From: Shimia aestuarii
GTDB taxonomy: Bacteria; Pseudomonadota; Alphaproteobacteria; Rhodobacterales; Rhodobacteraceae
DNA length: 64,000 nt
Direction: 5' to 3'
Assembly (NCBI RefSeq): GCF_900114635.1
Contig: NZ_FOTQ01000004.1
Coordinates: 62,001 to 126,000 of the forward strand
Part shown: piece by piece, positions 31,955-36,245 of the stretch
Layout of the letters: every line of letters starts with the position of its first letter
Numbering within the stretch: position 1 is the first letter of the stretch
Notes under the pieces: generated by a model
The model's database searches: none
Seen by the model: the letters and a program-made list of their open reading frames with translations, nothing else
What the model was told of the DNA's origin: nothing
Position numbers and translations under genes: made by a program

Positions 31955-32734
31955 TCAGGCGGCGAGGTCGACCCAGACCGGGACGTGATCAGAGGGTTTC
32001 GACCGTCCGCGTTCGCTTGCGTCGATCTGGCAGTCCCGCAACAGGTCGGCGCATTGCGGGCTCAGGAGGAAATGGTCGATTCGAATGCCGTCGTTCCTGT
32101 CCCATGCTCCGGCCTGATAATCCCAGAAAGAATAATGGCCCGGCCCTTGGGTGCGGGCGCGAAACGCCTCGGTCAGGCCCAGATTGAGCAGGCGGCGGAA
32201 GGCGGCGCGACTTTCGGGCAGGGCGAGCGCATCCTCGGTCCACGCGTCGGGGCGCTTGGCGTCTTCATCCTGGGGTATGACGTTGTAATCACCTGCCATG
32301 AGAAACGGCTCTTCTGATGTGAGCAGTTCGCGCGCACGGTCGATCAGCCGTTCCATCCAGGCCAGCTTGTAGTCGTATTTCGGCCCCGGAGTCGGGTTGC
32401 CATTGGGCAGGTAGAGACCGCAGAGGCGGATGGCCCTGTCACCAACGACAGTGGCCTCGATATAACGGGCCTGTTCGTCGTCGTTATCTCCGGGCAGTCC
32501 GCGCGAGACATCCTCGAGCGGGTATTTAGACAGGATTGCGACCCCGTTGAAGCTTTTCTGTCCGTGGGTTTCGACGTTGTAGCCACGCTCTTCGAAAACC
32601 TCGCGCGGGAAGTTTTGGTCCACGGATTTGATCTCTTGCAGCAGCGCGACATCGGGTTGTGCTTCGTCCAGCCAGCGCGGCAGGGTGTCGATGCGGGCTT
32701 TGATGCCGTTGATGTTGAAGGTGGCGATCTTCAT
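31955..32734 (-). CDS. xthA: exodeoxyribonuclease III
   Basis: 259 residues of the exonuclease III/AP endonuclease family. Conserved catalytic segments: NINGIKAR (7-14), Glu34 in LLQEIK, GLYLPNGNPTPG, GDYNVIPQDED and the final SDHVPV. It cuts DNA at abasic sites and trims 3' ends in base excision repair. AAGGGGA supports the start at 32734. Confidence 0.95.
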   Translation of the reverse strand: MKIATFNINGIKARIDTLPRWLDEAQPDVALLQEIKSVDQNFPREVFEERGYNVETHGQKSFNGVAILSKYPLEDVSRGLPGDNDDEQARYIEATVVGDRAIRLCGLYLPNGNPTPGPKYDYKLAWMERLIDRARELLTSEEPFLMAGDYNVIPQDEDAKRPDAWTEDALALPESRAAFRRLLNLGLTEAFRARTQGPGHYSFWDYQAGAWDRNDGIRIDHFLLSPQCADLLRDCQIDASERGRSKPSDHVPVWVDLAA

Positions 32735-33125
32735 GACGTGTCCCCTTTGCGCGCCGTTTGGGGCGACTATCCCCCGGATCAGACGGATCGGCAAGGGGGG
32801 AAGCGGGAGGGAATCGGGCGCTGAAACCCCGACCGGAATCACCTGTGCGCTAGATCGGATCGTTGCGGATTCGGGGGGTGATTCTTAGCGAGACCCGTGC
32901 AGGACCGGATGGACTCTACGGGAAATGCGGCGAGAATGTGGCGCAAATCGGGCGAAAAATAGACCCAGTAAGTTTTGTGTTTTAATTAAATAAATACAGA
33001 ATTTTGCGATCAAAAGTTAATGTAAATATTGCACTGCTTAACACGATTAGCGAGAAAAAATAGTTTGAAAAACACGGAATGGGTGCAAGCGTGAAGGGGT
33101 CGAAACCTCAACTGGGAATTCAAAA
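32735..33125. other. 391-bp leader containing an A+T-rich tract
   Basis: No credible gene on either strand. The first 210 bp have normal base content. About 32950-33065 is sharply A+T-rich (for example TTTTAATTAAATAAATACAG), unlike anything else in the window. It leads into the repeat-protein gene and probably holds its promoter. I see no riboswitch fold that I recognise. Confidence 0.6.
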
Positions 33126-33836
33126 ATGCTCGCTCAAAAATCCACTCAAATCGTTAACGAAACCTTTGCACAGCGTTCGCCCCGCAACACCGAAGCCAGC
33201 CCCCTTGATGGCGTGGCGACCGAGATGTTCACGTCGGGTCTTTCGCCAGAAATGGCCGGCGATGTGATGGACGGCGGCGCGACCGCGCTTTTCACCAGCG
33301 GTCTGGTGCAGATGTTCACCAGCGGTCTTGCCCCGAACCCCTCGGCAGATGCCAGCCGCGGCGAAGGCCTTGAAATGTTCACGAGCGGCCTGTCGGCCAG
33401 CGGCACCTCGGCAGAAGATGGCGACGCGGTGGAAATGTTCACCAGCGGTCTGGTGCAGATGTTCACCAGCGGCCTTGCCCCCAATGCGTCGGTCGAAGCG
33501 GCCAAAGGCGAAGGTGTCGAGATGTTCACGAGCGGCCTGTCGGCCAGCGGCACCTCGGCGGAAAGAGGCGACGCGGTGGAAATGTTCACCAGTGGCCTGG
33601 TGCAGATGTTTACCAGCGGTCTTGCCCCGAACGCCTCGGCAGACGTGACCAAGGGAGAGGGTGTCGAAATGTTCACCAGCGGTCTGTCGGCCAGCGGCAC
33701 TTCGGCCGAAGATGGCGATGCGGTGGAAATGTTTACCAGTGGTCTGGTGCAGATGTTCACCAGTGGTCTTGCCCCGAATGCCGGTGCCAAGGCCGAAGCC
33801 GGCGAAGGTGCCGAGCTTTTCACCTCGGGTCTGTGA
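33126..33836 (+). CDS. repeat protein with 13 copies of [ML]FTSGL
   Basis: 236 residues. After a 30-residue leader, the hexapeptide MFTSGL (twice LFTSGL) occurs 13 times, with the last copy forming the C-terminus. From residue 61 the copies lie in a 49-residue unit (VQMFTSGL, APN-rich spacer ending GEG, EMFTSGL, SASGTSAE-GDAV, EMFTSGL) present three times plus a partial fourth. There is no Cys, Trp or Tyr, no signal peptide and no membrane helix; spacers are acidic and small-residue-rich. The next gene starts 57 bp downstream, then an exporter overlaps that. The layout is like a multi-core peptide precursor or a scaffold with repeated docking motifs. I recall uncharacterised Pfam DUFs of this kind in Rhodobacteraceae (perhaps DUF6749), unverified. 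Confidence 0.85.
   Translation: MLAQKSTQIVNETFAQRSPRNTEASPLDGVATEMFTSGLSPEMAGDVMDGGATALFTSGLVQMFTSGLAPNPSADASRGEGLEMFTSGLSASGTSAEDGDAVEMFTSGLVQMFTSGLAPNASVEAAKGEGVEMFTSGLSASGTSAERGDAVEMFTSGLVQMFTSGLAPNASADVTKGEGVEMFTSGLSASGTSAEDGDAVEMFTSGLVQMFTSGLAPNAGAKAEAGEGAELFTSGL
33306..33833 (+). repeat. 147-bp in-frame tandem repeat, 3.6 copies
   Basis: Units at 33306-33452, 33453-33599, 33600-33746 and the partial 33747-33833. Each encodes 49 residues with three FTSGL motifs. Copies are highly similar in DNA, differing mostly in the spacer after APN and in third bases (for example AGCGGTCTG versus AGTGGCCTG). Confidence 0.92.
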
Positions 33837-33893
33837 TCCGGCGCATGGGAACGGGGCGCGCGGTGCGCCCTTGGTCAAGAAAGGAACAATCCG

Positions 33894-34973
33894 ATGTCCA
33901 ATGTCGTGCAACTGATCGTCCCGTCCCAGCGGCAAACCCCTGCTGAGCGCCATGGCGCGCTCATGCAGAGCTTTGCCCGCCATCGCCGCTTTGGCGACGA
34001 TGTGTTCTGGCTCAAGGAAAATGCCGAATTGCTCAATATTCTGGAATGCACCGGGGCGGCCGTGGATGCGCCCGCACTGGACGCGTACCAGGGCTTTTAC
34101 GAAAACGTGGAAAAACGGCTTCAGTTTTTCCCGCAATACTACCGGTTCCTGTTGTCGATCTGTCTTGATCTCGAAGATCTCGGCATGCCGGGTGACAAGG
34201 GCGCGCAGCTTTGTGAATGGGTTTCAGACCAAGGGTTTGCCCAGGCGGAGCTGTCTGATCTTCAACGTATGGAAGCGCGTCGGCTGATGTTGCGCCGGGG
34301 TACCGATCCGCTTCCCGAGGACGCGACGTTGGAAGCGCGGATGCGGGGCTTCATGGCGCGGTCCGCAACATTCTCAATGCCCAACAAGAAAGCGGCATAC
34401 GAGTTGACCCATGCGGTGTTCTACCTCTCCGAATACGGGCGCAAGGATCCGCAATTGAACGCGGATGTGGCGAAATCACTGGAGTTCACCGGGGTTCTGG
34501 CTCTGCTGGAACAGAATGCCGATCTGTTGGCAGAGGTCTGTGTGGCGATGCGCTTTGGCGGAATCGCGGTTCCGGAACTATGGCAGAACTGGCTGGTGCG
34601 CCATACTGCGCTGTTTGCCGTGGAAACCGGCGATCATGTGGTACAACAAGATGATTATCACGAGTTCCTCGTGTGCAACTGGATGCTGGCAGCGACGGAA
34701 AAAGCGCCGTTCCAGCGGGAATTCCTCGCGGAACGCACCGGCTTTTTCCGCCCGGACAATGCCGGTGGAGCGCTGCGCGAATTGTCGGAATGCATGTACC
34801 GGCTGGACGAGGACCGTTCTAGCGACTGGGATGCGATGCGCCCCGTCGTGCTGGAGAGCCTCAGCCCGGATGCACAGGTGGTCGTGGCCTGTGCGGAAAG
34901 CTCAAGCGACGTATTTGATGAGTTTTTCCAAGGGTTTGCCCGCGCCAACACGATGGTGGAGTACGCAGGATGA
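33894..34973 (+). CDS. helical protein of unknown function beside the FTSGL repeat protein
   Basis: 359 residues, predicted soluble and nearly all alpha-helical. Notable segments: LKENAELLNILECTG (40-54), FFPQYYRFLLSICLDLEDLGMPG (78-100), YELTHAVFYLSEYGRKDP (169-186) and DDYHEFLVCNWML (253-265). His173 and His256 with nearby acidic and Tyr residues would be the first candidates for a catalytic or metal site. AAAGGA supports the start at 33894. It overlaps the transporter gene by four bases. I recall an uncharacterised Rhodobacteraceae family of this type (perhaps DUF6902), unverified. A modifying enzyme or a binding partner for the repeat protein are both possible. Confidence 0.8.
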   Translation: MSNVVQLIVPSQRQTPAERHGALMQSFARHRRFGDDVFWLKENAELLNILECTGAAVDAPALDAYQGFYENVEKRLQFFPQYYRFLLSICLDLEDLGMPGDKGAQLCEWVSDQGFAQAELSDLQRMEARRLMLRRGTDPLPEDATLEARMRGFMARSATFSMPNKKAAYELTHAVFYLSEYGRKDPQLNADVAKSLEFTGVLALLEQNADLLAEVCVAMRFGGIAVPELWQNWLVRHTALFAVETGDHVVQQDDYHEFLVCNWMLAATEKAPFQREFLAERTGFFRPDNAGGALRELSECMYRLDEDRSSDWDAMRPVVLESLSPDAQVVVACAESSSDVFDEFFQGFARANTMVEYAG

Positions 34974-35911
34974 CCGCGCGTCGACCGGTTGTGATCGGCA
35001 CCATTCTTGTGGTGCTTTACACGCTGATGATTTCCTCGGCGGACGCGATTACCAAGCTGATCGCCTCCGGCTACTCGGCACCGCAGCTTTTTGCGGTGTC
35101 GGGCTTTCTGGTGGTCGCACTGAGTCTTGCCTCGGCGCGACTGTCCGGCGGGGGGCAGGGACTGGGGACGATCTGCCCCAGGGCCATGGCACTTCGGTCC
35201 GGGTTGACTGTGATCGGGTCGGTTGCGTTCTTTTATGCGTTCCGGCTGCTGCCCCTCGCAGAAGTATTTGTTTTCATTGGAATGATGCCGATATTCGCCG
35301 GGTTGTTCTCGGCGCCGATCCTGGGTGAGCATGTGCGTCCTATGGCGTGGTTGGCGCTGGCCGCCGGATTTGTTGGCATGTTGTGCCTGTTCCCGGGCGG
35401 GCTTTCTGCTGTCACGCTGGGGCATTGGGTGGCGCTGTTCGCCTGTGTGTGCGGCACGCTCTCGCTGGTTCTGGCCCGATACATCGGGCGGCATGAACAG
35501 AATGCGCTTGCGCAGGTATTCTATCCCAACCTTGCTTTGGCCGCGTCGATGGCTCTGGCTTTGCCGTTTGTTTACAAGCCAATGCCGTTGGCGGACCTCG
35601 GGTGGGTGCTGACCTATGGGCTGTTCCTGTTCGGCGCGCGCTGGGTGTCGGTGGTCGCGCTCCGGCTTTTGGCGGCTTACACGGTGACACCGCTCATGAA
35701 CCTGCAGTTTGTCTGGATGGTGGTTCTTGGCGCGGTATTCTTTGGCGAAACGCCCGAGCTGAACATCTATCTCGGTGTTGCAATCGTGATCGGGTCGGGG
35801 GTGTTTCTTGTCTACGATCAGATGCAACCGGAAGGACAGCCTTACCCTTGGGCAGTGCGGATCATGGCGCTGTGGCCGCCGCTTCGTCAGAAGATAAAGT
35901 TTGCCAAATAA
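34970..35911 (+). CDS. EamA/DMT-family transporter in the FTSGL operon
   Basis: 313 residues with ten predicted membrane helices in two EamA repeats (about 5-140 and 150-295). The segment AFFYAFRLLPLAEVFVFIGMMPIFAGLFS is typical of the family. Substrates of the family are small molecules. The start lies inside the stop of the preceding gene (ATGA), so the two are translationally coupled. Whether it exports a product connected with the repeat protein is inference; it may be an unrelated passenger. Confidence 0.87.
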   Translation: MTARRPVVIGTILVVLYTLMISSADAITKLIASGYSAPQLFAVSGFLVVALSLASARLSGGGQGLGTICPRAMALRSGLTVIGSVAFFYAFRLLPLAEVFVFIGMMPIFAGLFSAPILGEHVRPMAWLALAAGFVGMLCLFPGGLSAVTLGHWVALFACVCGTLSLVLARYIGRHEQNALAQVFYPNLALAASMALALPFVYKPMPLADLGWVLTYGLFLFGARWVSVVALRLLAAYTVTPLMNLQFVWMVVLGAVFFGETPELNIYLGVAIVIGSGVFLVYDQMQPEGQPYPWAVRIMALWPPLRQKIKFAK

Positions 35912-35921
35912 ATATTTGGAA

Positions 35922-36245
35922 TTACATGGAAAAGCTTGTTCCGCAGCCGCAGGAACTGGTGGCGTTCGGGTTGTTGATCACGAACCGGGCGCCGATCAGT
36001 TCTTCGGTGAAATCAATCGTCGCATTGGCAAGGAATGGCAGGGAAACGGAATCCACCAAAACCTTTTCGCCGTCCCGTTCAAGCACCAGATCGTCTTCGC
36101 GCGGTTCATCAAGCTTGATCTCGTACTGGAACCCCGAACAACCGCCACCTTCGACGGCCACGCGTAGCGCCTGCCCCTGAGAGGCGGCACCGATTTCAGC
36201 CAGACGGGCAAAGGCCCGTTCGGTCACTTTGGGAGGCAGTTGCAT
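35922..36245 (-). CDS. erpA: iron-sulfur cluster insertion protein ErpA
   Basis: 107 residues of the A-type carrier (IscA/ErpA) family. The three cluster-binding cysteines are in GGGCSGFQYE and SSCGCGTSF. A-type carriers pass Fe-S clusters to apoproteins. AGGGTG before the ATG at 36245 supports the start. The gene is divergent from dgt, as is common in Rhodobacterales. IscA or SufA naming is possible; no suf or isc operon is adjacent. Confidence 0.92.
   Translation of the reverse strand: MQLPPKVTERAFARLAEIGAASQGQALRVAVEGGGCSGFQYEIKLDEPREDDLVLERDGEKVLVDSVSLPFLANATIDFTEELIGARFVINNPNATSSCGCGTSFSM

Follow-up and report, generated by a model that had tools for sequence, protein, structure and literature searches.

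A repeat protein of Shimia aestuarii as a putative multi-core peptide precursor for a DUF6902 enzyme

Results

A repeat ORF lies directly upstream of a DUF6902 gene

The window, a 64,000-nt stretch of Shimia aestuarii DNA (contig NZ_FOTQ01000004.1), carries on its plus strand an ORF of 236 codons plus stop (33126..33836) that we propose to be a multi-core precursor gene. Exact counting confirmed what the initial annotation had read from the letters: the 236 residues hold 13 copies of [ML]FTSGL, the last of which forms the C-terminus, and Cys, Trp and Tyr each occur zero times. The copies start at residues 34, 55, 63, 84, 104, 112, 133, 153, 161, 182, 202, 210 and 231, and are therefore spaced 21/8/21/20/8/21/20/8/21/20/8/21. 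Such repetition is far from chance: when residues 31–236 were shuffled 10,000 times, the count of any one 5-mer never rose above three. The array of 13 [ML]FTSGL copies and their acidic Ala/Ser/Gly spacers (33225..33833, plus strand) is preceded by a leader region of residues 1–33 (33126..33224, plus strand), which starts with MLAQKS and was recognised by alignment of 11 close relatives. Over the whole protein, 30 Asp and Glu residues stand against 8 Lys and Arg.

Ten nucleotide versions of FTSGL occur within the array, and when the core codons were compared pair by pair, 174 differences were synonymous and 0 non-synonymous. We conclude that the peptide rather than the DNA is conserved, and that the copies do not stem from one recent DNA duplication. 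The predicted structure of the precursor (mean pLDDT 43.6, with strand-like stretches at low confidence) indicates a protein without a stable fold, and inspection by eye showed no signal peptide. Its matches in Pfam, NCBIfam and PHROGs were rejected as artefacts of composition, being below the curated cut-offs where these exist, or weak; the NCBIfam caspase-EACC1 match, for instance, scored 25.3 bits where the cut-off is 140. A phage collection contained no relatives of the precursor. Two long antisense frames run over the array on the minus strand, at 33120-34136 (338 aa) and 33146-33823 (225 aa); we take them as by-products of the repeat and of codon bias.

A 57-nt gap separates the precursor gene from the DUF6902 gene (33894..34973, plus strand; 359 aa), for which we propose a core-modifying role. 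The gap contains a GC-rich stem-loop (33853..33871, plus strand) that is no better than shuffled sequence (z 0.05). Over 143 loci the intergenic stem-loop had a mean z of -0.69, with z below -2 in 27; similar hairpins can be seen by eye at several loci and are overall no better than shuffles. A scan for sigma-70 promoters found no site, and a terminator scan found 7 against 3.9 expected. The start of the third gene (34970..35911, plus strand) overlaps the DUF6902 stop; it encodes an EamA-family transporter (PF00892, E 5.5e-15) and would be the exporter. We noticed no protease in the cassette. Nor did we find a dedicated RiPP recognition element nearby, as the genome has a single PqqD-type match and this lies on another contig. 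The genome also lacks an M55 D-aminopeptidase. None of the three cassette proteins matched an anti-phage defence family in PADLOC-DB at E ≤ 0.01.

The precursor and DUF6902 genes appear to form a cassette at a fixed site

A sample of 394 genomes from the bacterial family of the window contained DUF6902 in 108, and we analysed 101 of these 108 loci, leaving out G027, G329 and G272 together with the contig-split G181, G321, G370 and G139. More broadly, 368 stretches among 84,980 species genomes encode a DUF6902 relative, and the best 80 of these 368 are all alphaproteobacterial, mostly from Rhodobacteraceae. A plasmid collection contained no relatives of the DUF6902 protein of the window. The initial annotation had proposed counting how often the partner gene and an EamA gene accompany the repeat protein. 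The first association proved nearly complete: a homologous acidic ORF with at least two core copies lies upstream of the DUF6902 gene at 99 of 101 loci, counting one (L066) that is partly masked. The second is frequent and not obligate: among 100 loci (all but that of the window itself), 77 have a same-strand EamA gene, which in 71 is the direct downstream neighbour. Conversely, a query with a repeat precursor matched all 10 enzyme-positive genomes searched, and only 1 of 30 that lack the enzyme (E 2.3e-7); this lone match proved to be an unrelated repeat protein that by eye is WD40-like and has no G-x5-F-x-S unit.

The two loci without a precursor, L110 and L127, encode the only enzymes of the 101 that lack H173 (Arg and Gln, respectively) and D210 (Ser and Leu). 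Y169 is also lost in both (Arg and Val), and is replaced once, by Phe, among the other 99. The two may share one ancestor, and would then represent one event instead of two. Their divergent, precursor-less DUF6902 proteins may have been repurposed.

The neighbourhood of the three genes is itself conserved. An exodeoxyribonuclease III-like gene, which we take to be xthA (31955..32842, minus strand), bounds the cassette upstream and is divergent in 95 of 100 loci; the gene that bounds it downstream (35922..36245, minus strand), presumably IscA/HesB-like, is present in 90 of 100, and a dgt-like gene likewise in 90 of 100. For comparison we used the xthA flank, about 1.5 kb long, at 27 sites from the 30 enzyme-negative genomes, excluding L259 and L260 (both partial) and L261 (a paralogue). 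An IscA-like gene lies near xthA in 19 of these 27 cassette-free sites, and EamA in 0 of 27. EamA was not found in 23 of the 100 DUF6902 loci, some of these stretches being cut by contig ends. Since the flanks are conserved with and without the intervening genes, the precursor, DUF6902 and EamA genes resemble a cassette that occupies one fixed site and from which EamA is sometimes missing.

The repeat unit is conserved across the family

We collected precursors from 181 loci, some organisms being shared between the 100 fetched and the 80 named loci. Comparison of the last 60 residues left 156 distinct precursors. Twelve of these (L066, L073, L110, L111, L114, L119, L121, L123, L125, L126, L127 and L207) were set aside by hand as masked, truncated, without precursor, or with cores that escaped the anchoring rule, so that 144 remained. 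The excluded set includes cores of the MMCCS, MMSCS, MPTSN, YIAGL, SPSC and QSFSAP types, so the consensus leans to F-type cores. With that bias, the 144 precursors gave the consensus G(96%)-[DE]-[AG]-[VT]-[EGQ]-[MLA]-F(94%)-[TS]-S(90%)-[GWSA]-[SLA]-[AG]-P(73%), or in short form G[DE][AG][VT]E[ML]-F[TS]S[GW][SL]-AP. They contain 40 different pentapeptides: FSSGS in 33 precursors, FTSGS in 22, FTSGL in 14, FTSWS in 12, and the rest in six or fewer. The consensus F-[TS]-S-[GWSA]-[SLA] fits the suggestion that Thr/Ser and Phe are the modifiable residues, the modification itself being putative.

Precursors carry 2 to 20 core copies (median 7), and in 103 of 144 the protein terminates precisely with the fifth residue of its final core. 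Spacing varies along with copy number between homologues, which goes part of the way towards the unrelated spacing that the initial annotation had named as evidence against its proposal. The absence of Cys holds for the protein of the window and not for the family, in which FTCGL, FTSCA and FTTSC cores exist; Cys is simply not required.

The leader, which the initial annotation had described as 30 residues long and unrelated, is not unrelated, as its type of start recurs in many homologues. Of the 144 precursors, 93 have the pattern M-x-A-[QLVAIE]-x-K at the start chosen for them, against 2 of the 893 remaining Met residues; the first count is biased upward since start codons were chosen with a similar pattern. 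This strict form replaces an earlier permissive one (120 of 144), and the MLAQKS of the window departs from it by one residue.

Cores change in every copy at once

Comparing copies within one protein (143 precursors), we found pN/pS values of 0.21 for the core, 0.49 for the preceding segment and 0.87 for positions +8 to +12. The difference lies in pN (0.12, 0.30 and 0.52, respectively, the core value being inflated by some spurious sites that the anchoring rule admits), and pS is equally high in all three regions (0.57–0.61). Cores are thus more constrained than spacers. The probability of the same pentapeptide is 0.79 for two copies in one protein and 0.10 for the consensus of two proteins, and at least 64 pentapeptide changes map to a tree of DUF6902 (FastTree, 144 proteins). 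Six core types sit on short branches within a 14-row clade that holds the Marivita loci. L149 and L147 have enzymes that agree at 335 of 356 alignment columns; the former carries seven copies of FTSGS and the latter six of FSSGS. The L147 Ser codons at the Thr-to-Ser position end in four different bases, and four of the seven L149 cores are identical in DNA, indicating that part of the L149 array is recent. How an entire array arrives at one new core, even though its copies remain diverged at synonymous sites, is a puzzle. We conclude that such array-wide change suits a peptide product whose copies must all be alike, and is hard to reconcile with a motif that docks onto a conserved partner.

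DUF6902 belongs to the DUF6895 superfamily

The partner enzyme matches PF21843 (DUF6902; E 4.1e-165) with 549.3 bits against a curated cut-off of 27, and also PF21836 (DUF6895; E 3.9e-27) with 95.8 bits against a cut-off of 23.8. Its identity to three DUF6895 proteins is only about 15–20%. Polar residues are nevertheless shared: in an alignment of 14 superfamily members from four phyla, chosen by hand, H173, D210 and E214 are conserved in 14 of 14, and Y169, Y255 and H256 in 13 of 14. The stretch that encodes these six residues (34398..34661, plus strand) may therefore represent the active site, to judge from the alignments.

The AlphaFold2 model of the enzyme has a mean pLDDT of 91.8. The best structural matches listed by VIA-align (Z 8.8–12.2) are alpha/alpha toroids, with Z up to 12.2 for class II terpene cyclases, 11.7 for prenyltransferase beta subunits and 10.9 for the complement thioester domain, and with a GH105 hydrolase also among the resemblances; the comparison covers residues 12–273, and such Z values can be reached by a common helical arrangement. 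The matches are thus no more than suggestive of an alpha/alpha-toroid-like fold. Kinship with terpene cyclases, prenyltransferases or thioester domains was considered and rejected, the helical toroid arrangement being all that is held in common. Foldseek with the model returned no PDB match at E ≤ 1e-3, the best PDB hit by sequence had E 0.9, and profile searches of the enzyme matched no cofactor-binding family. In a literature search outside which most subscription journals fell, we found no publication on DUF6902, no relevant literature on FTSGL and no multicore RiPP from Rhodobacteraceae.

Some DUF6895 genes elsewhere adjoin short ORFs with few cores

DUF6895 is rare in the samples searched: it occurs in 13 of 398 genomes of a phylum sample, eight of them from the family of the window, in 10 of 369 genomes of a class sample, and in seven plasmid records over two queries. 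Two of the five phylum-sample matches from outside the family (L230 and L231) are below the cut-off, and these loci have no recognisable DUF6895-type gene or precursor. We looked at 18 DUF6895 loci from outside the family, 17 of which have readable upstream DNA; L279, truncated by a contig end, is not counted, nor are L228 and the G923 match. Membership of L274, L276 and L277 was assigned by tblastn and alignment rather than by Pfam scan.

A short ORF lies directly upstream in nine of the 17 readable loci (L225, L226, L227, L271–L274, L277 and L278), and behind one intervening gene in two more (L275 and L276, both Streptomyces plasmids); the remaining six, which are weaker matches (L280–L285), have no recognisable precursor. 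The upstream ORF contains LVGPWFVLAG in L225, ELAGPWYIYKE and ELVGPWFVLKE in L226, DWTFVSPNYVYKG and DWTFISHNYVYKG in L227, and IGPWYAYH in L271, a Streptomyces plasmid. AW[DE][KR]YVLVV is found both in L274 (Streptomyces plasmid) and in L273 (Kitasatospora plasmid). A Pseudalkalibacillus plasmid (L272) also has a short ORF upstream of DUF6895, that of a Gemmatirosa plasmid (L277) has no recognised core, and the gammaproteobacterial L278, which is DUF6902-like, has three GCYT cores. L228, itself a family match, has a 228-residue open frame that is perhaps a fragment, and its short upstream ORF holds GWWAVVSDHCVVAG. By eye, the leaders of several of these ORFs have in common a segment like SGIIN-x-x-TTL-x-QL. 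The ORFs of L225, L226, L227, L271–L274 and L228:6592-6885 have one or two W/Y-rich cores (GPW[FY] or AW[DE][KR]YVLVV) and, judged by their sequences, look like undescribed RiPP precursors beside DUF6895.

A different and richer DUF6895 cluster is present on a Streptomyces fungicidicus plasmid (L275:3833-7688), where a 62-aa ORF, a 231-aa ORF of no assigned family and a pair of DUF6895 genes are joined by a serine hydrolase of PF00144; L276 has a similar run. At L284:4684-6372, an M55 D-aminopeptidase (8.9e-41) is fused ahead of a partial DUF6895 domain (1.1e-8) in one protein, which covers only 90 of 289 profile positions, lacks Y255 and H256, and is preceded by an ORF without a family match; L285 resembles it by eye. 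This fusion is a possible link between the DUF6895 superfamily and D-amino-acid peptides.

Discussion

RiPPs are ribosomally made, post-translationally modified peptides. Of the two options in the initial annotation, a multi-core RiPP precursor or a docking scaffold, the first is much the better supported by our comparison, which adds a partner enzyme, a recurrent leader start, uniform cores and few-core ORFs elsewhere; the scaffold explains less. A leader and repeated cores lie beside a gene whose presumed product is a maturase. The steps that we infer, namely modification, epimerisation, cleavage and export of the cores, would run as follows. The short leader would be followed by 13 pentapeptide cores, F-T-S-G-L, and ahead of most cores stands a G-[DE]-x-x-E-M segment that resembles a recognition element. 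The DUF6902 protein would bind the precursor and modify each core, most likely by inverting one core residue from L to D. A protease would cut the cores out, and the small peptides would leave through the EamA transporter. We are rather confident that the ORF encodes a precursor for a maturase that acts on its cores, and regard epimerisation in particular as evenly balanced. The whole reading, a RiPP-type multi-core precursor whose cores are modified and probably epimerised by DUF6902, is the one towards which we lean.

Several known systems bear on this reading. In cyanobactins, fungal dikaritins and yeast alpha-factor, a leader is followed by repeated near-identical cores with spacers. Their maturases differ from DUF6902, however, and the present family has pentapeptide cores that change in concert from one close species to another. 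Radical-SAM epimerases put D-residues into the ribosomal peptides of epipeptides and proteusins, but neither neighbour of the precursor matches the radical SAM family. The genome of the window has no match to PF13471, which we take to be the lasso leader peptidase family, and no Asn-synthase-like cyclase beside the precursor; a strong PF00733 match lies on another contig, and a weak partial one (6.7e-4) is some 63 kb distant on the contig of the precursor. Because PF13471 is missing and the cores are five residues long, we rejected a lasso peptide system.

The case for epimerisation comes from membership of the DUF6895 superfamily, the shared conserved residues and the D-aminopeptidase fusion. 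A DUF6895 lasso-peptide epimerase is named in the title of Shi et al. (ACS Catal. 2026), as cited in PMC13352647. By that title, an enzyme of the same Pfam superfamily acts on a ribosomal peptide, and this kinship, together with the Tyr/His...Asp/Glu...His set, makes L-to-D inversion the most likely reaction. There are also differences: the substrate in the window would be a multi-core pentapeptide array, and the enzyme belongs to the distinct DUF6902 subfamily. MslH, the C-terminal epimerase of the lasso peptide MS-271, is described as working by acid/base chemistry with one Ca(II) and two His/Asp dyads (PMC10406935). As far as that description goes, the dyads offer a model for how the two conserved His and the acids of DUF6902 might act, although the fold of MslH is calcineurin-like and that of the DUF6902 model all-helical and toroid-like.

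The same architecture could instead serve another reaction, with DUF6902 dehydrating, cyclising, hydroxylating or cleaving the cores. Alpha/alpha toroids serve many reactions, as the terpene cyclases, prenyltransferases and GH105 hydrolase among the matches illustrate, the consensus F-x-S-x-[SLA] offers Ser/Thr, and sequence identity to the three DUF6895 proteins is low. Yet the sole superfamily function that we met, by title, is epimerisation, the conserved residues are common to four phyla, and no cofactor-binding family was matched. We therefore consider another reaction a serious but unlikely alternative.

A docking scaffold, in which an unmodified FTSGL motif binds DUF6902 repeatedly for clustering or sequestration, would account for the many identical motifs, the acidic spacers without a predicted fold and the near-obligate partner. 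A conserved partner should fix such a motif, however, and the pentapeptide has changed repeatedly, even between near-identical enzymes. Moreover, loss of the conserved His and Asp coincides with loss of the precursor, and related enzymes adjoin single-core ORFs, which a scaffold would not need. We consider this reading improbable. A structural repeat protein (beta-solenoid, adhesin or fibre) with no peptide product, which the regular 20/21/8 spacing and the strand-like stretches of the model might suggest, is very improbable given the low pLDDT, the range of copy numbers between homologues, the lack of a signal peptide by eye and positions +8 to +12 that, unlike those of a solenoid, evolve almost freely.

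More speculatively, and with a good deal of doubt, the multi-core precursors of Rhodobacteraceae and the forms with one or few cores in other phyla might constitute a RiPP class of their own, in which a helical epimerase with no known cofactor makes short D-residue peptides, many from each precursor, and the hypervariable, jointly switching cores serve as species-specific signals or competition peptides. For DUF6902, a family whose function has so far been unassigned, the analysis provides a probable substrate, a reaction that can be tested and candidate residues for mutagenesis. If the preferred reading of a multi-core precursor with DUF6902-modified cores is right, a widespread and nearly uncharacterised line of peptides exists in common marine bacteria.
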